Positions 8,699-48,335 of a stretch of 64,000 nt of DNA are shown here, piece after piece. The position numbers and the translations under genes were made by a program. The DNA is taken from contig JAFRUI010000014.1 in assembly GCA_017438945.1 (NCBI GenBank), positions 1 to 64,000 of the forward strand. Direction: 5' to 3'. The stretch is from Bacteroidales bacterium (GTDB lineage Bacteria; Bacteroidota; Bacteroidia; Bacteroidales; WCHB1-69). A model generated the notes under the pieces. The model saw only the letters and a list, made by a program, of their open reading frames with translations. It was not told the origin of the DNA and made no database searches. Each line of letters starts with the position of its first letter. The stretch's first letter is position 1.

Positions 8699-9817
8699 TT
8701 ATTTGTTTGCTTTTTCGAAATCTTGCATGCAGGCGACGAGGGCTTCGACATCTTCGACGGTGCAGGCGTTGTAGAGGGAGGCGCGGAAGCCGCCGACGGA
8801 ACGGTGGCCCTTGATGCCGATCATGCCGCGTTCTTTGGCGAAAGCCATGAAAGCGTCCTGCTTGTCCTCGTAACCAGGAGCCATCACCCAGCAGTGGTTC
8901 ATAATGGAGCGGTCGGCCTTGTCGGCGACGGTGCCCACGAACATGCTGTTGCGGTCGATTTCCTCGTACAGCAGGTTGGATTTCTTCATGTTGATCTTGT
9001 TCATTTCAGCGACACCGCCGATGGTGTTCTTGAGCCAGGTGAGGGTTTCGTGCATCACGAAGATGGGGAGCACGGGAGGAGTGTTGAACATGGAGATGTT
9101 CTTGGCTTCCTCGGCAGCGTGGGTGCGGTAATCCACCATGGTGGGCAGCGGGTTCATGTAGGCGCGGTCTCCGATTTGGCCGAGGATGTCCTTGCGCACG
9201 ATGACGAAGGTGACACCGGCAGGGCCGACGTTCTTCTGGGCACCACCGTAGATGAGGCCGTATTTGGTCACATCGACGGGACGGCTCATAATGTCGGAGC
9301 TCATGTCAGCGACAAGCATCACATTGTTGCACTCAGCAGCGGTGAAGTCCTTGCGGATTTCAGTGCCGTAGATGGTGTTGTTGGTGGTGATGTGGAAATA
9401 GTCGGCGTCAGCGGGGACGGTCCATCCTTTAGGAATGTAGTTGTAGGTTTTGTCCTCAGAAGAAGCGATGATTTCGGTTTTACCGAAGTTTTTGGCTTCT
9501 TTGGCGGCCTTCTTGGCCCAGACGCCGGTCTGGAGGTAAGCGGCTTTGGTCTTCATCAGGTTGGCGGGCACCATGAAGAACTGGGTGCTGGCACCGCCAC
9601 CGAGGAAGAGCACTTCATAATTGTCGGGAATGTTGAGCAGGTCGCGCCAAAGTTGGCGGGTTTCTGCCATAAGGCGTTCCCAACCCGGGGTGCGGTGGGA
9701 AATCTCCATCAGACCGATTCCGGTGTTGTCGAAATTGCGGATAGCGTTGATTGTGGATTCAACAGCTTCTTTCGGGAGGACGCAAGGTCCTGCGTTAAAA
9801 TTGTGTACTTCTTTCAT
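8699..9817 (-). CDS. serC: phosphoserine aminotransferase
   Basis: A PLP enzyme that transaminates 3-phosphohydroxypyruvate to phosphoserine; it also serves 4-phosphohydroxythreonine formation for PLP synthesis. The 372-aa protein starts with the family signature HNFNAGPCVLP. It carries the LMEISHRTPGWE segment, the GGGASTQF phosphate-binding loop and the Schiff-base lysine K195 in YGGAQKNVGPAG. It is the first gene of the serC-serA pair, with a strong -7 box 55 bases upstream. The nearby pdxA gives a functional link through pyridoxal phosphate. Confidence 0.96.
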   Translation of the reverse strand: MKEVHNFNAGPCVLPKEAVESTINAIRNFDNTGIGLMEISHRTPGWERLMAETRQLWRDLLNIPDNYEVLFLGGGASTQFFMVPANLMKTKAAYLQTGVWAKKAAKEAKNFGKTEIIASSEDKTYNYIPKGWTVPADADYFHITTNNTIYGTEIRKDFTAAECNNVMLVADMSSDIMSRPVDVTKYGLIYGGAQKNVGPAGVTFVIVRKDILGQIGDRAYMNPLPTMVDYRTHAAEEAKNISMFNTPPVLPIFVMHETLTWLKNTIGGVAEMNKINMKKSNLLYEEIDRNSMFVGTVADKADRSIMNHCWVMAPGYEDKQDAFMAFAKERGMIGIKGHRSVGGFRASLYNACTVEDVEALVACMQDFEKANK

Positions 9818-9871
9818 AACCAGCTAAATATGTTATTTATTTAAAATAGATATTAGATAAAATATGATTCG

Positions 9872-9880
9872 GCAAAGATA
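9872..9880 (-). promoter_or_regulatory. -7 box for serC-serA
   Basis: The minus strand reads TATCTTTGC, a full match to TAnnTTTGC, about 55 bases before the serC ATG. Confidence 0.65.
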
Positions 9881-9984
9881 CACAAAAAAGCGACTGTCCA
9901 AGCCTTTTTTCGGGGTAAGAAATTTTTTTTGAGAAAGTGTTGGACAGAATGAAAAAAAATGTATTTTTACAGCCTGAAATTTTC

Positions 9985-10072
9985 GGAGAGATGGCCGAGT
10001 GGTCGAAGGCGCGCGCCTGGAGAGCGCGTAAGCGCCAAAAGCGCTTCATGGGTTCGAATCCCATTCTCTCCG
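9985..10072 (+). tRNA. tRNA-Ser(GGA)
   Basis: A class II tRNA. The acceptor GGAGAGA pairs with TCTCTCC. The anticodon arm CGCGC-CTGGAGA-GCGCG gives anticodon GGA, reading UCC/UCU. A long variable arm (TAAGCGCCAAAAGCGCTT) and a T arm ATGGG-TTCGAAT-CCCAT follow. The discriminator is G and no CCA is encoded. TATTTTTAC at 9962-9970 may be its -7 box. The remaining DNA between serC and exbB shows nothing else. Confidence 0.95.
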
Positions 10073-10140
10073 CTGAGAACTAAAAGACTGAAAATCAATA
10101 AAGTATAATATAGTTTAATTTCAAAAAATCAAAATTCATT

Positions 10141-10968
10141 ATGAAAAAGCTTATCGCCTTACTTACCGTTTTCGGTTTCTTAACCTTCGGTATTGCAAAC
10201 AACGCATTTGCTCAAAAACAACAAAAAGCTGACGAAGCTGCCGCCACTGAGCAGGTCGCTGAAGAAGTGGCTGAAGCTCCCGCCGCTGCCGCTCAAGCTG
10301 AACTGTCCGAGGATCCTGATGACTCCATCAACCAAGGTTTGCACTACACGTTGAAAGACAAATTCATCCAGGGTGGTGCTGTTTGGATGACCCCTGTGTT
10401 GATCTGCTTGATTTTGGGCTTGGCTTTCGTCATTGAACGTATTTTCTACCTCAACCTCTCTTCTGTGAATTCCAAGAAGCTGCTCGACAAAGTAGAGAAC
10501 ACGCTTAAGACCAAAGGCGTTGACGCCGCCAAGGAACTTTGCCGCGACACGAAGGGACCCCTCGCAGCCGTTTTCTTCCAAGGTCTCGACCGTTATGATG
10601 AAGGTCTTGAGTCTGTGGAAAAATCCCTCACCTCTTACGGTGCCGTCCAAATGGCTAAGCTGGAAAACAATATGACTTGGATCAGCCTGTTCATCGCTCT
10701 CGCCCCGTCTTTGGGATTCTTGGGAACGGTCATCGGTATGGTGCAGGCTTTCGATGATATCGAGCGCGCAGGTGATATCTCCCCGACCATCGTCGCCGGC
10801 GGTATGAAAGTGGCTTTGTTGACCACCGTGTTCGGTTTGATCACCGCCATGATCCTCCAAGTGTTCTATAACTACCTTCTCACCCGTATCGACGCCATCG
10901 TGAACGATATGGAAGATGCCACCATCTCCTTCATGGATATTCTGGTAAAAAACAAAGAAAATAAATAA
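10141..10968 (+). CDS. exbB: MotA/TolQ/ExbB proton channel family protein
   Basis: An inner-membrane proton-channel subunit that harvests proton motive force with ExbD/TolR partners. The 275-aa protein begins with a cleavable-looking signal (residues 1-25, ending NAFAQ) and an Ala/Glu-rich periplasmic stretch, as is usual for Bacteroidota ExbB. Three membrane segments follow: ~78-100 (GAVWMTPVLICLILGLAFVI), ~180-198 and ~215-240. The conserved ALAPSLGFLGTVIGM motif lines the channel. Two ExbD genes follow in the same operon, with an unknown membrane protein between. The energised process (TonB-type import or Tol-Pal) cannot be decided from the sequence. Confidence 0.9.
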   Translation: MKKLIALLTVFGFLTFGIANNAFAQKQQKADEAAATEQVAEEVAEAPAAAAQAELSEDPDDSINQGLHYTLKDKFIQGGAVWMTPVLICLILGLAFVIERIFYLNLSSVNSKKLLDKVENTLKTKGVDAAKELCRDTKGPLAAVFFQGLDRYDEGLESVEKSLTSYGAVQMAKLENNMTWISLFIALAPSLGFLGTVIGMVQAFDDIERAGDISPTIVAGGMKVALLTTVFGLITAMILQVFYNYLLTRIDAIVNDMEDATISFMDILVKNKENK

Positions 10969-35753: not shown

Positions 35754-35781
35754 GTAGAGACGCGCCATGGCACGTCTCTAC
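35754..35781. repeat. GTAGAGACG palindrome
   Basis: GTAGAGACGCGCCA with TGGCACGTCTCTAC, one mismatch in 14 pairs. It lies between polA and the small lipoprotein gene. Confidence 0.9.
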
Positions 35782-35790
35782 AACGGTATC

Positions 35791-36075
35791 TCACTTTTCG
35801 TGGCACTCGAAAGAAATATACATCTGAATGCCATATTCCGGTAAATATTGCCCAACGGTATCCCTTGAGTTCCAGAAGGAACATTCCATAGCAGATTCCC
35901 TTTCGTATAGAACAGAATTATCATAGATAGGGTAAGGGACACTGTCATGCAATGCCGTGTCGATAATGTCATAATAACTATTATCCATGCAGTAGCATGT
36001 TCTGATTTTTCCGCATCCCGCCGCCATTATCGCTGTAATGACTAATAATATGCAAATTGTTACATTCTTCATCAT
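35791..36075 (-). CDS. small lipoprotein of unknown function
   Basis: A 94-aa protein with a lipobox MAAGC (C21) after a hydrophobic stretch. The mature part is about 73 residues with five cysteines and many tyrosines and acidic residues, and no recognised domain. It may start at either of two adjacent ATG codons (36075 or 36072). The upstream heptamer array overlaps its first codon and the end of the barrel gene, 29 bases apart, so the two may be cotranscribed with the sigma gene further upstream. Small size and lack of homology keep confidence moderate. Confidence 0.6.
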   Translation of the reverse strand: MMKNVTICILLVITAIMAAGCGKIRTCYCMDNSYYDIIDTALHDSVPYPIYDNSVLYERESAMECSFWNSRDTVGQYLPEYGIQMYISFECHEK

Positions 36076-36109
36076 TTTTAATTCTTAATTCATCATTCTT
36101 AATTTAAAA
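36068..36109. repeat. heptamer array (TTCTTAA/TTCATCA)
   Basis: Units TTCATCA, TTTTTAA, TTCTTAA, TTCATCA, TTCTTAA and TTTAAAA. It spans the lipoprotein start codon and the last codons of the barrel gene. Confidence 0.85.
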
Positions 36110-37789
36110 CGCGTATCCGATGCCCGCCGAGGCAAACCCCTTGATGCCGACGCCAAGCTCGAAGGAACCGAAGAGGTGGTCGCCCCCGGCCCGAACTCCG
36201 AAAGCCGTGAGTTGGAAGGAAGGGGTTACCTTGCTGCTTTTTTCCCAACGGTAATCCCCAAAATTCCCCATATACAATTCCTTCCCCAAAAACAGGGTCG
36301 TGCCGGCTGCAACGGCCGAATAAAGGGTCACGTGCGGACGGTTAAAGTAGGAAAACCGCAGTTCAGGCATCAAGGTGAGGCAATTCATCCTCCGTTGAGT
36401 GTAAACGGCATCTGTGTGAAACGGATAGTCCGTGTGGTCTTTGTAGTAGGCGTAATTCACCATGGCGCCGACCCAAAACCACTTGCTCAACCGATAATGG
36501 TAGTTGAACGAGAAAACAGGGGTGGTGCGGAACGCAAAGCCCAATCCGTCATCTGGATTAATTTCATATCCTGCTTGACCGTAATCAAAGAGTTTATGCA
36601 AGTGCATCCTGATGAAGAGTCCAAACGGATCACTGACTTCGAAACGAACTTCGTGTCGGTAGTGCATCCCGTTGAAAGTGCTCCAGTGCGGTTGCGCTTG
36701 CATCCGCTTCCGATGCTTGTCGAAGCTTTGGACATAAGCGATTTGGAAATAGAGGTGGTTGTTCCGTTGGCGTGTTTCGGTAGGTTCATCTTGGCCGGGA
36801 GTCGAAATCCAACCTACACTCTCGTTCGCTGTGGCAAAGTTCAGCCCAGCAGTGAAGCGCAAGTAATCGTTGTTGTGTAACCGATAGTAGATTCCCGCAT
36901 CGAGCATAATGTCCGCGTATGGGATATTCCTTTCATAAATACCCTCTGTGCGTGTACCCGTCTCTGGATCCATTCCGTAACCCCAATACCCGTCGTTTCT
37001 GTCGAATCCTTCCAGAAAAGTCAGCGCGGGCACGCGAAGGCGGACGCCGGCGTTAGCCGTAAACAGCACTTTTTCGCTCACCGGATAGTGGAATTCGAAT
37101 TTCACAGGCGCGGAGAGACGGAAGAAACGCGATGCTGTGGTCCCGAAGTTCAGTGCGGCCGAAATCCCGAAAAAGTCGTCGAAATGGTAGGAACACTCCA
37201 CCCCGACATGAAAGCCGGAATGCGGGATTCCCCATGCTTGCCAATCCGCACCGAAATCCCTTTTCATGGCAGGTTCTATCAAGTCATACTGGATAGTGTA
37301 GCCGAGGTGGAAACCGTTTATCTGACCGTTGAAGAGGTGGGTTTTATGCTTTTTTGGGGAATCATGCGGCTTCCCTGCCGCGGTGCTGTCCGTCTGCGCC
37401 GGCGACATCGCGTTGAGTCCTAAGATGATCAGTCCGGCCAATCCGTATTTCTTTATGCTGTCCATACTTGAAAACGTTTGCTGTTCATCTTTAAAGACGC
37501 GGTTTTCCCAAAAAGTTACGGTCTGTTGCAGCAGCTTTTCCTTCAAAGAGTCCGTAAGCGACAGATTGTCAACATATTCCGAACTGTAGAAGAGCCGCTC
37601 GAACTCTTCGCTGCGGAGGTAGTCGGCGATGTTCAGGGTGTCGTGGACGCGCACGGTGTCATACACAGTGACAGTGTCGTAGGTCACGGTCTCGCGTTCC
37701 ACATACACGGTGTCGCGGTGCTGGGCGGCGAGGGGACAGACGACAGACAAGAACAAAAAGAAGACCAGAAATATACTCCTAATACTCAT
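36104..37789 (-). CDS. outer-membrane beta-barrel protein with N-terminal DTV repeats
   Basis: A 561-aa protein with a signal peptide (1-22, ending PLAAQ). The mature N-terminus carries a run of DTV motifs (residues 26-50, of the type YDTVTVYDTVRVHDT), then a helical region with a short hydrophobic patch (~115-128). From ~150 a long series of amphipathic strands typical of an outer-membrane barrel follows. The conserved-looking GFHVGVECSYHFDDFFGISAALNFG fits a porin-family barrel. It lies 51 bases downstream of a membrane-fused sigma factor on the same strand, and that sigma factor ends in a similar HDTITVTDT motif. A role as signal receptor or target of that sigma factor is inferred. The exact family was not recognised. 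Confidence 0.75.
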   Translation of the reverse strand: MSIRSIFLVFFLFLSVVCPLAAQHRDTVYVERETVTYDTVTVYDTVRVHDTLNIADYLRSEEFERLFYSSEYVDNLSLTDSLKEKLLQQTVTFWENRVFKDEQQTFSSMDSIKKYGLAGLIILGLNAMSPAQTDSTAAGKPHDSPKKHKTHLFNGQINGFHLGYTIQYDLIEPAMKRDFGADWQAWGIPHSGFHVGVECSYHFDDFFGISAALNFGTTASRFFRLSAPVKFEFHYPVSEKVLFTANAGVRLRVPALTFLEGFDRNDGYWGYGMDPETGTRTEGIYERNIPYADIMLDAGIYYRLHNNDYLRFTAGLNFATANESVGWISTPGQDEPTETRQRNNHLYFQIAYVQSFDKHRKRMQAQPHWSTFNGMHYRHEVRFEVSDPFGLFIRMHLHKLFDYGQAGYEINPDDGLGFAFRTTPVFSFNYHYRLSKWFWVGAMVNYAYYKDHTDYPFHTDAVYTQRRMNCLTLMPELRFSYFNRPHVTLYSAVAAGTTLFLGKELYMGNFGDYRWEKSSKVTPSFQLTAFGVRAGGDHLFGSFELGVGIKGFASAGIGYAF

Positions 37790-37835: not shown

Positions 37836-37863
37836 ATTCTTCATTCTACATTCTTCATTAAAA
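37836..37863. repeat. heptamer array (ATTCTTC type) forming the sigma gene end
   Basis: Units ATTCTTC, ATTCTAC, ATTCTTC and ATTAAAA. On the minus strand it encodes the last residues (LMKNVE) and the stop codon of the sigma gene. Confidence 0.85.
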
Positions 37864-38896
37864 AAATGGTATCGGTAACGGTGATGGTGTCGTGCAGGAC
37901 GACGGTGCGGGTGACGGGAATCTCGCGGGTAATGACCACCGGTTCGGGTTGTAGAGACGTGCCTTGGCGCGTCTCTACGGGAGCGGTAACGGTTTCCGCA
38001 GATTTCGAGGTGGCATTTTCCGCAACCATGGTATCCGAAATCGGGATCTTTTCCGGGTTCTCCGGTTGTGGAGACGCGCCATGGCACGTCTCTACAGTGG
38101 ACGACGCATTTTTCCCCGGCGTGTTACGCACCATCTGCCACACGCAAATTCCTCCTGCGACGGTGGCGGCAGCGGCTATGAGGGCGGCGGTTTTGTGGGT
38201 GGCGACAGCTATTCCCGCGCTGGCGGGCGAGGTGGCGACGGCGGAGCGGATCTCCGTTTCCGTCAGTCGGTGTGACGGCGGCATCCGCAGCTGCGACAGC
38301 TCGGAACGATAGAGCCGGTCGAGGTGGTGGGCGGAATTTCGTTTCATCATGAATAGAAGTGCAATCATAAGCAGTCCTTTCTTTTTGGATTCTTTTTCTT
38401 GGGCTTTGGCGGTGAGCAGCTGCTGTAGGCGCGTTCGGGCACGGAGGAGCAGCTGCTTGGAGTTGGTGACGGAGATATCCATCAGGTCGGCAATTTGCTG
38501 GTGCGAAACGCGGTCGATAGCGTGGAGGTTGAAGACCATGCGTTGTCGTTCAGAGAGTTGCTGGATGGTTTCCAACAGTTCTTCCTTCGTGAATCCGGTC
38601 TGCCAGTTGGGTTCGTCTTCTTGGTCGGTGGGGTCGGTGGTGAGCTCTTCCTCCAACGGCACGGTTTCGGGTCGCGTGCGCAGGTAGGAGATGCACCGGT
38701 TGACCGTGATGCGGGTCAGCCACGCGTCGAAGGAGTCCATCACGCGGCAGGTGTCGGCCCGCTCGATTGCCTTCAAAAACGCCTCGTGCGCGAGATCCTC
38801 CGCAGTCTGCCGCTCCCCGACATACCGGTAGCAAAGCCCCACCAACCGATCGATGTGCTGCTCATACTTCCGTGACCAAAACTTCACTTTGTCCAT
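37841..38896 (-). CDS. ECF sigma factor fused to a membrane helix and periplasmic tail
   Basis: A 351-aa protein. Residues ~8-75 are sigma region 2 (LCYRYVGERQTAEDLAHEAFLKA, then SFDAWLTRITVNRCISYLR). Residues ~105-162 are region 4 (LSERQRMVFNLHAIDRVSHQQIADLMDIS). After this comes a shared segment KKKGLLMIALLF..HHLDRLYRSELSQL (~171-204), a membrane helix (~234-256), and a ~95-residue Pro/Thr-rich tail ending PVTRTVVLHDTITVTDT. An ordinary ECF sigma stops near residue 170, so the second half is a fusion. Two in-frame palindromes (37951 and 38068) encode parts of the tail, and a heptamer array encodes the last residues. Its promoter is at 38989. It is divergent from a paralogue at 39224. Confidence 0.85.
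   Translation of the reverse strand: MDKVKFWSRKYEQHIDRLVGLCYRYVGERQTAEDLAHEAFLKAIERADTCRVMDSFDAWLTRITVNRCISYLRTRPETVPLEEELTTDPTDQEDEPNWQTGFTKEELLETIQQLSERQRMVFNLHAIDRVSHQQIADLMDISVTNSKQLLLRARTRLQQLLTAKAQEKESKKKGLLMIALLFMMKRNSAHHLDRLYRSELSQLRMPPSHRLTETEIRSAVATSPASAGIAVATHKTAALIAAAATVAGGICVWQMVRNTPGKNASSTVETCHGASPQPENPEKIPISDTMVAENATSKSAETVTAPVETRQGTSLQPEPVVITREIPVTRTVVLHDTITVTDTIFLMKNVE
37951..37978. repeat. GTAGAGACG palindrome inside the sigma gene
   Basis: GTAGAGACGTGCC and GGCGCGTCTCTAC around TT. On the coding (minus) strand it reads VETRQGTSL in the phase GTA-GAG-ACG. Confidence 0.9.
38068..38095. repeat. second GTAGAGACG palindrome inside the sigma gene
   Basis: GTGGAGACGCGCCATGGCACGTCTCTAC. 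On the coding strand it reads VETCHGASP, the same phase as the copy at 37951. Confidence 0.88.
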
Positions 38897-38900
38897 TTTT

Positions 38901-38935
38901 TTGCTATTAGCTATTAGCTGTTGGCTGTTGGCATC
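38901..38935. repeat. heptamer array (TAGCTAT/TGGCTGT)
   Basis: Units TTGCTAT, TAGCTAT, TAGCTGT, TGGCTGT and TGGCATC, directly upstream of the minus-strand sigma gene. Confidence 0.85.
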
Positions 38936-38988
38936 AACAAATCACTATTCACACACTATATTGCTTAATTCCTCTATTCAAATATGAC

Positions 38989-38997
38989 GCAAAAATA
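38989..38997 (-). promoter_or_regulatory. -7 box for the minus-strand sigma-fusion gene
   Basis: The minus strand reads TATTTTTGC, about 92 bases before the start codon, with a heptamer array in the leader. Confidence 0.6.
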
Positions 38998-39084
38998 CAA
39001 AAAGGTTACGGTGCGGTGAATGTCCTTGTGTTGTCTTTTTTGTAAATGTCTTCGGCACACGTTATTACATCTTTTTAAGTTACA

Positions 39085-39173
39085 AGACTTAAGACATAAG
39101 ACTTGAGACGTTGGGATTTGTCGAAGCTGTTTCTTCTGAGGCAAAAAGTCTCAAGTCTCAAATCTTAAGTCTC
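39085..39173. repeat. opposed heptamer arrays forming a long imperfect hairpin
   Basis: AGACTTA, AGACATA and AGACTTG on the left (39085-39110) face AAGTCTC, AAGTCTC, AAATCTT and AAGTCTC on the right (39146-39173). The two arms are imperfect reverse complements separated by about 35 bases. It ends 18 bases before the -7 box of the WG-repeat sigma gene. Confidence 0.8.
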
Positions 39174-39190
39174 CATTTGGCCCTTTTTCG

Positions 39191-39199
39191 TACTTTTGC
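39191..39199 (+). promoter_or_regulatory. -7 box for the WG-repeat sigma-fusion gene
   Basis: TACTTTTGC lies 24 bases before the ATG at 39224. Confidence 0.6.
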
Positions 39200-39223
39200 G
39201 TCATCATTGTAAAAGAGCGAAAA

Positions 39224-40612
39224 ATGCAGGCGAAACAGTTTTGGACAAAGGCATACCAGCGAAACATCGCGAAGATGGTCGGGATGTGCTGCCGCTATGT
39301 GGGCGACCGCGCGGTGGCCGAAGACCTCGCGCACGAGGCGTTCCTCAAGGCCATCGAGAAGTCCGGAACCTATCGTCGCCTCGGCAGTTTCGACGGCTGG
39401 CTGATGCGCATCAACCTCAACACCACGATGGATTACCTGCGGCGGCAACCTCAATTTCTGTCGATGGATGACGATACCGTGGGGACGCGATTTATCGCGT
39501 CCGAATCCGACGTTGTAGAGACGCTTCATGAAACATGCATCACCGAATCTGACCTCACCGAATCCGAAATCCTCGATGCCATCTGCGCCCTGCCCGACAA
39601 ACAACGGACCGTTTTCAACCTGTATGTTTTTGAGAACCAATCTCATGCGAAAATCGCGGAGGCATTGCAAATCGGGGTGCGCAGCTCGAAACGCTACCTT
39701 TCAGAGGCGCGGGCGAAGCTGCAAATCGCCTTGAACAACCTTGTCCACCACAAAAAATCTGGACTTATGATACTGCTCCCTTTTCTCCCTTGGAAATCGC
39801 ACGCCATCGACCGTCTTTGCCGTGCGAAGCTGAAATATCTGGCGTTGTCGCCTGCCGGGCCGTCGCCCTTGTCCGCTGTCAACTGGACCGCAGCCCCGAA
39901 GCCGGGCGTCTGGATGGCCGTCACCGCTGCCAAAGCCCCCGCCATAGCCACAGGCGTGGTCGCCACCGCCGTGACGGGATCCGTCATCGCGTATCAGGCG
40001 CAACCCGCACCCACACCCGCTGGCCCGACCCCGCAGAAAACGGTGGTAACCACGTGTGTTGCAGCCGATTCCGATTCCACGCATGTAAACAACGATACCG
40101 CCGTCGTAGGGACGCGATTCATCGCGTCCGCCATTCCCGCGTCCGCCGCCGAACCCCCATATCCTGAACAGCAAGTAAAAGGAACCGAATCATCTGTTTC
40201 ACCATTGCCCGAAACGCCCGTATCCAACGTAGTAGAGACGTTTCATGAAACGTCTCTACCTTCGCATCATAGCCTGAAGAAGTTCGAGCGCAACGGCTTC
40301 TACGGTCTCAAGGACGCACACGGGACCGTGGTCGCATATCCGAAATACACGGACATACAGCCGTTTGACGAATACCGGACCGGCTGGGCAATGGTGGAGA
40401 TATTCGGGTTCAAGGGGTTTGTGGATAGCACCGGCAAGGAGGTGGTCGCCCCGCAATACGACGACATCGGCAAGTTCGGGCGGTATCGCGACCGCTGTGC
40501 CCTCGTGCGTAAAGGAAACTTCTACGGCTTCATCAACACTGCCGGCAAGGAGGTGGTGCCCGTGACGCACAAAAAGTCAGAATTAATTAAAATTCAACAT
40601 GAATTACCATAA
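39224..40612 (+). CDS. ECF sigma factor fused to a membrane helix and WG repeats
   Basis: A 462-aa protein. Region 2 is residues ~8-76 (CCRYVGDRAVAEDLAHEAFLKAIE, then SFDGWLMRINLNTTMDYLR). Region 4 is ~112-172 (LPDKQRTVFNLYVFENQSHAKIAEALQIG). The following segment KKSGLMILLPF..HAIDRLCRAKLKYL (~177-207) matches the paralogue on the other strand. A membrane helix (~234-257), a Pro/Thr linker, and WG-type repeats (~350-447, with FYGLKDAHGTVV, FKGFVDSTGKEVV and FYGFINTAGKEVV) complete it. The region 2-4 linker holds two palindrome-derived stretches, and the outer linker two more. The C-terminal residues come from a 10-base repeat array. Membrane-tethered signalling is inferred. Confidence 0.86.
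   Translation: MQAKQFWTKAYQRNIAKMVGMCCRYVGDRAVAEDLAHEAFLKAIEKSGTYRRLGSFDGWLMRINLNTTMDYLRRQPQFLSMDDDTVGTRFIASESDVVETLHETCITESDLTESEILDAICALPDKQRTVFNLYVFENQSHAKIAEALQIGVRSSKRYLSEARAKLQIALNNLVHHKKSGLMILLPFLPWKSHAIDRLCRAKLKYLALSPAGPSPLSAVNWTAAPKPGVWMAVTAAKAPAIATGVVATAVTGSVIAYQAQPAPTPAGPTPQKTVVTTCVAADSDSTHVNNDTAVVGTRFIASAIPASAAEPPYPEQQVKGTESSVSPLPETPVSNVVETFHETSLPSHHSLKKFERNGFYGLKDAHGTVVAYPKYTDIQPFDEYRTGWAMVEIFGFKGFVDSTGKEVVAPQYDDIGKFGRYRDRCALVRKGNFYGFINTAGKEVVPVTHKKSELIKIQHELP
39479..39503. repeat. related palindrome (GGACGCGAT centre) in the sigma 2-4 linker
   Basis: GGACGCGATTTATCGCGTCC, coding for VGTRFIAS. It is nearly the same as the copy at 40106 and in the same phase. Confidence 0.8.
39515..39542. 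repeat. decayed GTAGAGACG palindrome
   Basis: GTAGAGACGCTTCATGAAAC has the left arm and centre of the perfect copy at 40232, but its right arm is degraded to ATGCATC. It codes for VETLHETCI. Confidence 0.65.
40106..40130. repeat. related palindrome (GGACGCGAT centre) in the periplasmic linker
   Basis: GTAGGGACGCGATTCATCGCGTCCG codes for VGTRFIAS, as at 39479. Confidence 0.8.
40232..40259. repeat. perfect GTAGAGACG palindrome before the WG repeats
   Basis: GTAGAGACGTTTCA followed by its exact reverse complement. It codes for VETFHETSL and lies at the junction of linker and WG repeats. Confidence 0.9.
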
Positions 40613-40722
40613 AAATCCACGAATTAATCAAAAATTTATAATAAATTCATGACCATTTATGCTAATTTATGGCCATTTATGAATAATTCATGGTGATTTA
40701 TGTTAATTTGTGATAATTTATG
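40581..40722. repeat. degenerate 10-base tandem array
   Basis: About fourteen units of roughly ten bases of the type GCTAATTTAT/GGCCATTTAT/GTTAATTTGT, with one 11-base slip near 40681. It encodes the last residues of the WG-repeat sigma protein, its stop codon and most of the leader of the next gene. Confidence 0.8.
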
Positions 40723-40743
40723 TCCAAACAAAAACCAAATACA

Positions 40744-41610
40744 ATGAAAAAGTCAATATTAATCATTGCCATCTTATTGACAACAAGTACCTTAGTCGCT
40801 CAAAACACCATTACGGGAAGTGGAAAGGTCATAGCCCAACATCGTGAACTTGAAGCGTTCACCTCTGTAAACTCCCCCTCCACGGTGGATGTCACCATAA
40901 TAAAAAACGAGAAATCCTGTGCCGAAGTGACAGCAGACAACAACCTGATGGAGTTCGTTCTCACCGAAGTGGAGAACGGCGTTCTCACCATCTCCATGAA
41001 ACGAGGCTTTTCCTATAACAGTCCTCACATCACTGTCACCATTTACACACCGCATTTGAGCGAGGTGGTCATGAAAGGTACTGGCAATGTGACTGTCCTT
41101 TCGGTGAAAGAGGAGTATTTCACCCTCACGACTAAAGGTACTGGCAACTTCAAAAGCGACTGTTTGGTGGTGGAAAAGGATCTGGTTTTGCAGTGCAGAG
41201 GCACGGGTAATATTGACGTGTCGTATATGTGCCCCAACAGCGTGACCATCCAAAACTCCGGCGCGGGCAATATGAACATAAAAATGCTTCAAAACGTTAC
41301 ATCAAGCATGAAGATTCAGAATTTGGGTACGGGTGACATCGACCTAAAAAAACTGTCTGTCGGCGATTTGCAGCTGATGATCCGCGGAACAGGAAACGTC
41401 ACATTGTCTGGGAAAGCCGACAACATGACCTTGGTGAACAGCGGCTGCGGAAATGTGCGGGCAAACATATTAAAGGTGAAAACCGCACACATCACGCAAA
41501 ACGGTATCGGTAACATCATAGCCACCGTCACGGACACTGCCTACTTGACACAGAAAAACAGAATCGGGAAGGTCACCATTCATGGTGGTGGGAAAATTGT
41601 TCGGGAATGA
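40744..41610 (+). CDS. DUF2807 (head GIN domain) secreted protein
   Basis: A 288-aa protein. I start at the ATG at 40744, which gives a signal peptide ending LVAQ; the ATG at 40720 is inside the 10-base repeat. The remainder is a regular beta-helix with turn repeats of the form GTGNVTVLS, GTGNFKSD, GTGNIDVS, GAGNMNIK, GTGDIDLK and GTGNVTLS, typical of the DUF2807 or head-GIN family of putative surface or periplasmic adhesins. It follows the WG-repeat sigma gene on the same strand, so it may be in its operon or be its target. The exact function is unknown. Confidence 0.82.
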   Translation: MKKSILIIAILLTTSTLVAQNTITGSGKVIAQHRELEAFTSVNSPSTVDVTIIKNEKSCAEVTADNNLMEFVLTEVENGVLTISMKRGFSYNSPHITVTIYTPHLSEVVMKGTGNVTVLSVKEEYFTLTTKGTGNFKSDCLVVEKDLVLQCRGTGNIDVSYMCPNSVTIQNSGAGNMNIKMLQNVTSSMKIQNLGTGDIDLKKLSVGDLQLMIRGTGNVTLSGKADNMTLVNSGCGNVRANILKVKTAHITQNGIGNIIATVTDTAYLTQKNRIGKVTIHGGGKIVRE

Positions 41611-41616
41611 CAGATT

Positions 41617-41644
41617 GTAGAGACGCGCCATGGCACGTCTCTAC
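41617..41644. repeat. GTAGAGACG palindrome between DUF2807 gene and mutS
   Basis: GTAGAGACGCGCCATGGCACGTCTCTAC, identical to the copy at 35754. It sits between two convergent genes next to a heptamer array. Confidence 0.9.
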
Positions 41645-44439: not shown

Positions 44440-44467
44440 GTAGAGACGTGCCATGGCGCGTCTCTAC
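44440..44467. repeat. GTAGAGACG palindrome between glycosyltransferase and mutS
   Basis: GTAGAGACGTGCCATGGCGCGTCTCTAC, one mismatch from a perfect palindrome. Confidence 0.9.
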
Positions 44468-48307: not shown

Positions 48308-48335
48308 GCAGAGACGCGCCATGGCGCGTCTCTAC
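48308..48335. repeat. GTAGAGACG palindrome downstream of ftcD
   Basis: GCAGAGACGCGCCATGGCGCGTCTCTAC, one mismatch, 11 bases past the ftcD stop. Confidence 0.88.

Follow-up and report, generated by a model that had tools for sequence, protein, structure and literature searches.

In Bacteroidota, the dual membrane-spanning anti-sigma factors (Dma) carry, in this order, an anti-sigma segment, a membrane helix and a barrel (PMC13088901), and in P. vulgatus an anti-sigma factor with an outer-membrane barrel is likely triggered by envelope stress (PMC9308784). In Pseudomonas putida, IutY (group ECF243 of the extracytoplasmic function, or ECF, sigma factors) is a fused sigma/anti-sigma protein cut by Prc and then by RseP (PMC8999054, PMC9249621). 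ECF48, ECF52 and ECF53 are expected to work like IutY (PMC8999054, PMC9249621, PMC5826349). One survey found a class I anti-sigma domain nearby for only 6% of Bacteroidetes ECF sigma factors (PMC7406223), so that the control of the remaining ones is an open question. We analyze here two divergent genes, A and B, in the first 64,000 nucleotides of contig JAFRUI010000014.1 from a Bacteroidales bacterium (assembly GCA_017438945.1, lineage WCHB1-69); this whole stretch is called the window. A and B are probably membrane-held, self-inhibited sigma factors, with A read out by a predicted outer-membrane barrel protein encoded behind it.

A sigma/anti-sigma fusion

An initial annotation of the window had described a divergent pair of genes for proteins with sigma regions 2 and 4, a membrane helix at about residues 234–257 and a non-sigma C-terminus, and such a pair is present. 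A (37841..38896, minus strand, 351 aa) and B (39224..40612, plus strand, 462 aa) are divergent, uninterrupted open reading frames (ORFs). Pfam matches both sigma regions in both proteins: region 2 at residues 11–75 of A (38672..38866; PF04542, 5.6e-17) and of B (39254..39448; 3.2e-12), and region 4 at residues 105–157 of A (38426..38584; PF08281, 5.2e-15) and 115–166 of B (39566..39721; 2e-12). With region 3 unmatched, both classify as ECF sigma factors; their scores against TIGR02985, a Bacteroidetes ECF subfamily (89.8 bits for A, 85.8 for B), are below the curated cut-off of 126.4. In A and B alike, the only strong hydrophobic 19-mer begins at residue 238 (hydropathy 1.83 in A and 1.65 in B) and is the predicted membrane helix (residues 238–256; 38129..38185 in A, 39935..39991 in B). 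The C-terminal end of A is VVLHDTITVTDTIFLMKNVE, with a strand motif at residues 325–345 (37862..37924). B ends, as had been annotated, in WG repeats (PF14903, 4e-15, three stretches, the best at residues 398–432; 40286..40573, outer limits estimated). Sigma factor and sensor end form one predicted membrane-tethered protein.

The initial annotation saw no anti-sigma gene next to the pair and treated the juxtamembrane part as a plain linker. Both points have to be revised, since an anti-sigma-like segment is fused in between sigma region 4 and the membrane helix. Searching the window's own genome with A gave, in addition to B, a stand-alone sigma factor on another contig (C35), 47% identical to residues 1–168 of A; beyond it lie other small ORFs, then a 188-aa protein matching residues 186–347 of A (24%, E 3.6e-5), and finally a barrel gene. 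In profile–profile comparisons (E-values for single comparisons), the segment, taken from 23 fused proteins, matches both 20 Dma-type N-termini (prob 96.6, pairwise E 5.6e-10) and four split anti-sigma factors (prob 94.5, E 8.2e-8), and the Dma-type N-termini match the split anti-sigma factors (prob 96.2, E 2.5e-9). Residues D193 and G248 of A are invariant in an 18-row alignment of all kinds. The segment spans residues 188–222 of A (38231..38335), as delimited by profile comparison, alignment and model, and about residues 192–225 of B (39797..39898), aligned with split and Dma-type anti-sigma factors. Neither A nor B has a Pfam match to a zinc-finger anti-sigma domain. Judged by these alignments, A and B both have, between sigma region 4 and the helix, a homologue of the anti-sigma part with which Bacteroidota Dma-type regulators begin, which makes A a sigma/anti-sigma fusion.

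An AlphaFold model of A (31 sequences) has a mean predicted local distance difference test score (pLDDT) of 63.8. Most of the sigma part is confident, the blocks at residues 191–220 have means of 88–92, and residues 231–351 are below 50, including the C-terminal strand motif, modeled as a beta hairpin. The two sigma regions of the model superpose on anti-sigma-bound SigW, RpoE–NepR and CnrH–CnrY at 4.2–5.2 Å over 141–144 residues, and on polymerase-bound ECF sigma factors at 20.6–27.2 Å (the VIA rows of this comparison cover residues 1–168 only).

The fused forms typically have, after a K-rich stretch, a hydrophobic segment just before the anti-sigma segment (residues 174–184 of A; 38345..38377). 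Its best 11-mer averages 1.98 in the 23 fused proteins (lowest 0.53, in L113), whereas the 20 Dma-type N-termini average –0.48 and the C-termini of 36 stand-alone sigma factors –0.08 (highest 0.87).

Distribution and gene layouts

The fusion is kept by homologues: A has 227, and among the 120 listed 111 are full-length (300 aa or more). The divergent pairing is also retained, with B beside A in 11 of 13 A-orthologous loci (at least 77% identity), counting L044, where an extra ORF lies between the two genes (8967–10418, ATPase-like by reading). In the other two loci, another ORF takes the position of B (L049) or the contig ends (G039). Eleven named loci with close relatives of A are from metagenome genomes of uncultured Bacteroidales or Bacteroidetes, and the sources, where stated, are goat abomasum, sheep rumen, yak rumen and reindeer. 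Among 295 genomes of the order, the sigma and fused parts share one open frame in at least 13, three of them of the window's genus. The scan of 296 genomes of the phylum adds, apart from the window's own, at least three, each from family f123; in one of them the match stops at position 222 of the 268 in the profile. In both scans the best eight or fewer candidates per genome were scored, so that the counts are lower bounds, and matches continuing through stop codons were counted as separate genes, none being mended. The annotation's caveat that a frameshift or an assembly artefact might have joined two genes can be dismissed: the ORFs are unbroken and the fusion recurs across families and source studies.

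Six layouts occur. The sigma factor, anti-sigma factor and barrel are all separate on C35 of the same genome and in L073, L075, L076 and L110. The Dma-type layout, with a separate sigma factor and an anti-sigma–barrel protein, is frequent in relatives and has 25 tree rows; in three of these the end is no barrel but PKD/CHU_C domains (L119 and L124) or a weak sorting-domain match (L204) (9 of 12 Dma-type proteins tested are over the Pfam barrel cut-off, one is below and two have no match). The layout of A, a sigma–anti-sigma fusion with a separate barrel, has 38 rows, although L063 and L066 are without a verified barrel neighbor, that of L055 is upstream, and contig ends truncate L040, L056 and L065. 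The fusion with WG repeats has 17 rows, which include B and, from another family of the order, L186 and L187 (767–769 aa). GIN domains replace the repeats in L060–L062 of genus g14. Finally, one chain runs from the sigma factor to a barrel-like end in L064 (599 aa), P0122 and P0123 (675 aa). In L119 (4424–5689) and L124 (1278–2570), the anti-sigma protein ends in PKD and CHU_C, a type IX secretion signal; these may be another type of sensor.

In a quick tree built from 91 sigma domains, the six layout labels, assigned by hand, need at least 10 changes (minimum possible 5; shuffled mean 45.5), and the division into fused and non-fused sigma factors at least five. Close paralogues differ in layout: a single five-member group with support 99 holds both the fused L055–L057 and the Dma-type L058 and L059. 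The sigma gene of L058 stops with TAG and the downstream gene starts 3 nt on, in the same frame.

Two genes of the window appear, from sequence comparison, to be one protein in the one-chain relatives. The one-chain C-terminus matches the barrels of the window's genus (prob 98.4, E 7.6e-15; score 97.5 against at most 18.9 in 20 column shuffles). It has no Pfam barrel match and no match to three other barrel sets (prob 0.1–1.9), and the name of barrel for this end therefore depends on that one profile match. The membrane helix has fair hydropathy in P0121 and P0122 (1.54 and 1.49) and is weak in P0123 (1.29). A search with a 3-row alignment gave no additional one-chain protein (P0124 covers 31% of the query), and none was found at E ≤ 1e-22 among the best three or fewer candidates per genome in 393 genomes of the order. 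An AlphaFold model of the one-chain protein (3 sequences; mean pLDDT 35.5) was discarded.

Partner genes, DT strands, promoters and repeats

The barrel gene (36104..37789, minus strand, 561 aa) lies 51 nt behind A and is over the Pfam cut-off for PF13568 (4e-08) and PF13505 (1.2e-07). A partner gene follows the fused gene in 31 loci (20 clusters at 60% identity); counted from first in-frame starts, the gap is 60 nt or less in 26 of them, and the two genes overlap in 14. Within the genus, most partner proteins match the window's barrel protein by sequence. Given the conserved gene order and the Pfam match, this barrel protein is likely the sensor partner of A. A small lipoprotein-like ORF behind the barrel gene (35791..36075, minus strand) is present in several orthologous loci. 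The locus is flanked in the window by polA and mutS, and in several relatives of the genus by genes that read similarly. FecR, STN and TonB-receptor domains have no Pfam match at E ≤ 1 in A, B or the barrel protein, and the locus differs in this, as the annotation had pointed out, from the FecR/TonB arrangement.

The tail of A carries the strand-like motif ...TRTVVLHDTITVTDT, and the partner proteins have DT repeats directly after the signal peptide (residues 26–52 of the window's barrel protein, 37634..37714; orthologues were scored too). Of 36 fused proteins, 35 have D[TS][VILTFY] within their final 45 residues, as have 110 of the 111 full-length homologues of A among those listed. The next genes carry two or more DT[VIL] at residues 15–110 in 31 of 34 cases, the exceptions being two non-barrel genes (those of L055 and L066) and one cut gene (that of L065). 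Control barrels of relatives have such repeats in none of 30 ORFs, of which L219 and L226 were apparently mispicked and L216 lies beside another sigma gene. Fisher's test gives p = 2.0e-10 against unbroken anti-sigma proteins and 3.4e-15 against control barrels, kinship uncorrected. The layouts used for these counts were sorted automatically; it erred for L069, L118, L187 and the partner gene of L075, four of the seven "all separate" loci, and gave no layout to L010, L063, L122 and L123. By analogy with the modeled FoxR/FoxA elements, the DT strands of the A tail and of the barrel N-terminus could be two ends that pair in the periplasm.

A candidate promoter, GTAACC-N13-GCGTC, precedes A (38986..39009, minus strand) and most of its orthologues; B and its orthologues have TGGCCC-N14-GCGTC (39178..39202, plus strand). 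The general pattern G[CT][AC]AC-N14-19-[GC][AG]TC occurs within 150 nt upstream of 21 of 37 sigma-anti-sigma fusions with a separate barrel (shuffled mean 0.72), 4 of 5 all-separate loci (0.12), 9 of 25 Dma-type loci (0.18) and 2 of 16 fusions with WG repeats. The TGGCC form is found in 14 of 16 WG-type genes (0.04) and in none of the other layouts. At up to three mismatches, the A-type promoter has three sites in the window's own metagenome-assembled genome (63% complete), at A, at the split sigma gene and at a lipoprotein-like ORF on contig C22, and the B-type promoter one, at B; no wider regulon was seen in this search. The C22 site (L257, 28512–28535) precedes a 146-aa ORF, a possible target of A or of its split paralogue. 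These sites would fit sigma factors that are still functional and autoregulated, A and B each having its own specificity.

B has partners of its own. A DUF2807 (GIN) protein is encoded behind it (40720..41610, plus strand; PF10988, 1.6e-30), and a DUF2807 gene adjoins the WG-type fusion in all 14 such loci of the genus (partial in L045, in two pieces in L040), compared with 0 of 2 in family f82. In genus g14, DUF2807 is fused to the B-type sigma factor. From these neighbors and this fusion we infer that B probably reads a periplasmic state via WG or GIN domains instead of a barrel. Since A and B each have their own kind of promoter and their own partners (the barrel for A, DUF2807/GIN for B), they are unlikely to form a single two-gene device.

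Palindromic repeats are also present in the window. A 28-bp palindrome, GTAGAGACGNNNCATGNNNCGTCTCTAC, has seven copies at up to three mismatches (35754–35781, 37951–37978, 38068–38095, 40232–40259, 41617–41644, 44440–44467 and 48308–48335; none in 100 shuffles) and 52 in the genome at up to two. Four copies lie inside open frames (two in A, one in B and one in the C35 anti-sigma gene) where 0.084 are expected, as if these elements settled in disordered linkers. A second palindrome, GGGACGCGATNNATCGCGTCC, has two window sites, 39482–39502 and 40109–40129, both within B, and one of them sits in the linker between its sigma regions 2 and 4.

Mechanism, alternatives and comparison with known systems

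In the mechanism that we favor, the anti-sigma helices of A would fold back onto sigma regions 2 and 4 and keep them closed and unable to engage polymerase, in the arrangement of the predicted model. In the periplasm, the DT strands at the C-terminus of A would pair with those with which the barrel protein begins, and the tether, a single chain in Dma, would be made of two. A change in the barrel would loosen the DT pairing, the periplasmic tail would be trimmed, and an intramembrane protease would then free the sigma part, which would transcribe its own operon from the GTAACC/GCGTC promoter. A surface signal might in this way reach RNA polymerase via two proteins only, A and the barrel. B would act similarly, its WG domain, probably with the neighboring DUF2807 proteins, replacing the barrel.

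Several observations weigh against this mechanism. SigG1, crystallized alone, also fits the model of A (4.5 Å), SigK with its anti-sigma factor and BldN–RsbN are at 7.9 and 12.2 Å, and the alignments of AlgU–MucA and SigmaE–RseA cover a single domain. If the hydrophobic stretch preceding the anti-sigma segment inserted into the membrane, as it could, the topology would be different. Among 13 partners of fused sigma factors outside the genus, called barrels by a signal-like start, DT repeats and the C-terminal end, two are over the Pfam barrel cut-off, five are below and six are unmatched. The proposed strand pairing is drawn from a shared motif, in a tail modeled at pLDDT below 50, and this motif also occurs in 2 of 23 unbroken anti-sigma proteins (2 of 20 when L119, L124 and L204, with their non-barrel ends, are removed). 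The G[CT][AC]AC promoter pattern, written like the other after the alignment had been viewed, is missing in 16 of 37 fused genes with a separate barrel, in 16 of 25 Dma-type loci, in all three GIN fusions and in the single one-chain locus. No M50 protease was found in the window's own genome at its 63% completeness.

Alternatively, the sigma factor might never be released and might act from the membrane, the signal only shifting the anti-sigma helices, so that the fusion would be a permanent membrane-bound transcription factor. Such a factor would need no protease, and the hydrophobic segment beside sigma region 4, which could dock to the membrane, is clear in 22 of 23 fused proteins (weak in L113). 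We nevertheless hold permanent tethering to be unlikely: IutY, the fused relative already described, undergoes cleavage by Prc and RseP (PMC9249621, PMC8999054), and 33 of 40 genomes of the genus have an M50 protease match. It is still less probable that the C-terminal part has lost its inhibitory role and is a mere anchor or scaffold, A and B being controlled via transcription. The matched anti-sigma signature is indeed short (38 profile columns) and each gene has its own candidate promoter; against this, 23 diverse fused proteins retain the signature and the predicted segment is confident beside the closed sigma factor.

The DT repeats might instead belong to extended barrel N-termini of the phylum, for assembly, stability or self-pairing, and be unrelated to the tail of A. 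The unbroken Dma-type L195 and L201 carry them, and the control barrels, mostly short and without long N-terminal extensions, are imperfect controls. With 21 of 23 unbroken anti-sigma proteins lacking the repeats, and with the motif in nearly all fused tails and next genes as counted above, we regard this explanation as somewhat unlikely. The chance that joined genes, read-through or an assembly error simulate the fusion is negligible in view of the 227 homologues from several families and source studies. Membrane-held, self-inhibited sigma factors thus remain our preferred reading of A and B. A broader and more tentative proposal is that surface signaling in Bacteroidota uses a kit, in which sigma factor, anti-sigma segment with helix, tether and sensor are freely cut and joined, up to a single chain, with matching DT strands re-zipping a cut tether across the periplasm; we lean slightly away from it, a little more so in view of the six outside-genus partners without a Pfam barrel match.

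From the layout series one sees that an inhibitor can be concealed within the sigma protein itself, and which outer-membrane protein probably belongs with it. The layouts also offer natural tests of whether the periplasmic tether has to be a single chain. A covalent link between a sigma factor and an outer-membrane barrel would be, if true, the shortest path from surface to promoter known to us.

Compared with Dma, A and B share the homologous anti-sigma segment (internal here), one predicted membrane helix and, in A, a tether predicted to be disordered from its pLDDT at residues 231–351; a barrel, and the same kind of candidate promoter in the Dma-type loci counted above, complete the likeness. 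In Dma the C-terminal barrel is in the same polypeptide and the cognate sigma factor, of group ECF21, is a separate neighboring gene, whereas in A the barrel is a separate gene, in B WG repeats take its place, and in both the sigma factor is fused. IutY likewise joins sigma and anti-sigma factors across one membrane helix and has an outer-membrane barrel partner, but its periplasmic part is of FecR type and its receptor TonB-dependent, and neither is matched in A, B or the barrel protein. ECF52 (SCO4117 of Streptomyces; PMC5826349) unites sigma factor, anti-sigma-like domain, membrane region and outer end in a single chain; this group is from Actinobacteria, with a zinc-finger anti-sigma domain and a carbohydrate-binding end, and A and B have no such Pfam match. 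In FoxR/FoxA (PMC11637429), elements of the anti-sigma factor and of its outer-membrane partner, homologous to each other, are modeled as one beta sheet, which is the analogy for the DT strands; there the domains are globular STN domains and the sigma factor is separate, whereas the A system has short repeat strands.

A literature search, with the Dma1 paper and the 2021 ECF classification outside its reach, gave no sigma/anti-sigma fusion from Bacteroidota, no account of Dma systems broken up or of a one-chain form, and no paper that combines WG repeat, sigma factor and Bacteroid*. The earlier proposal of an undescribed system was too strong: the principle of a membrane-tethered sigma/anti-sigma fusion is known in other phyla, from IutY and ECF52. 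Within this principle, the fusion derived from Dma, the B type and the one-chain type seem to be new versions.

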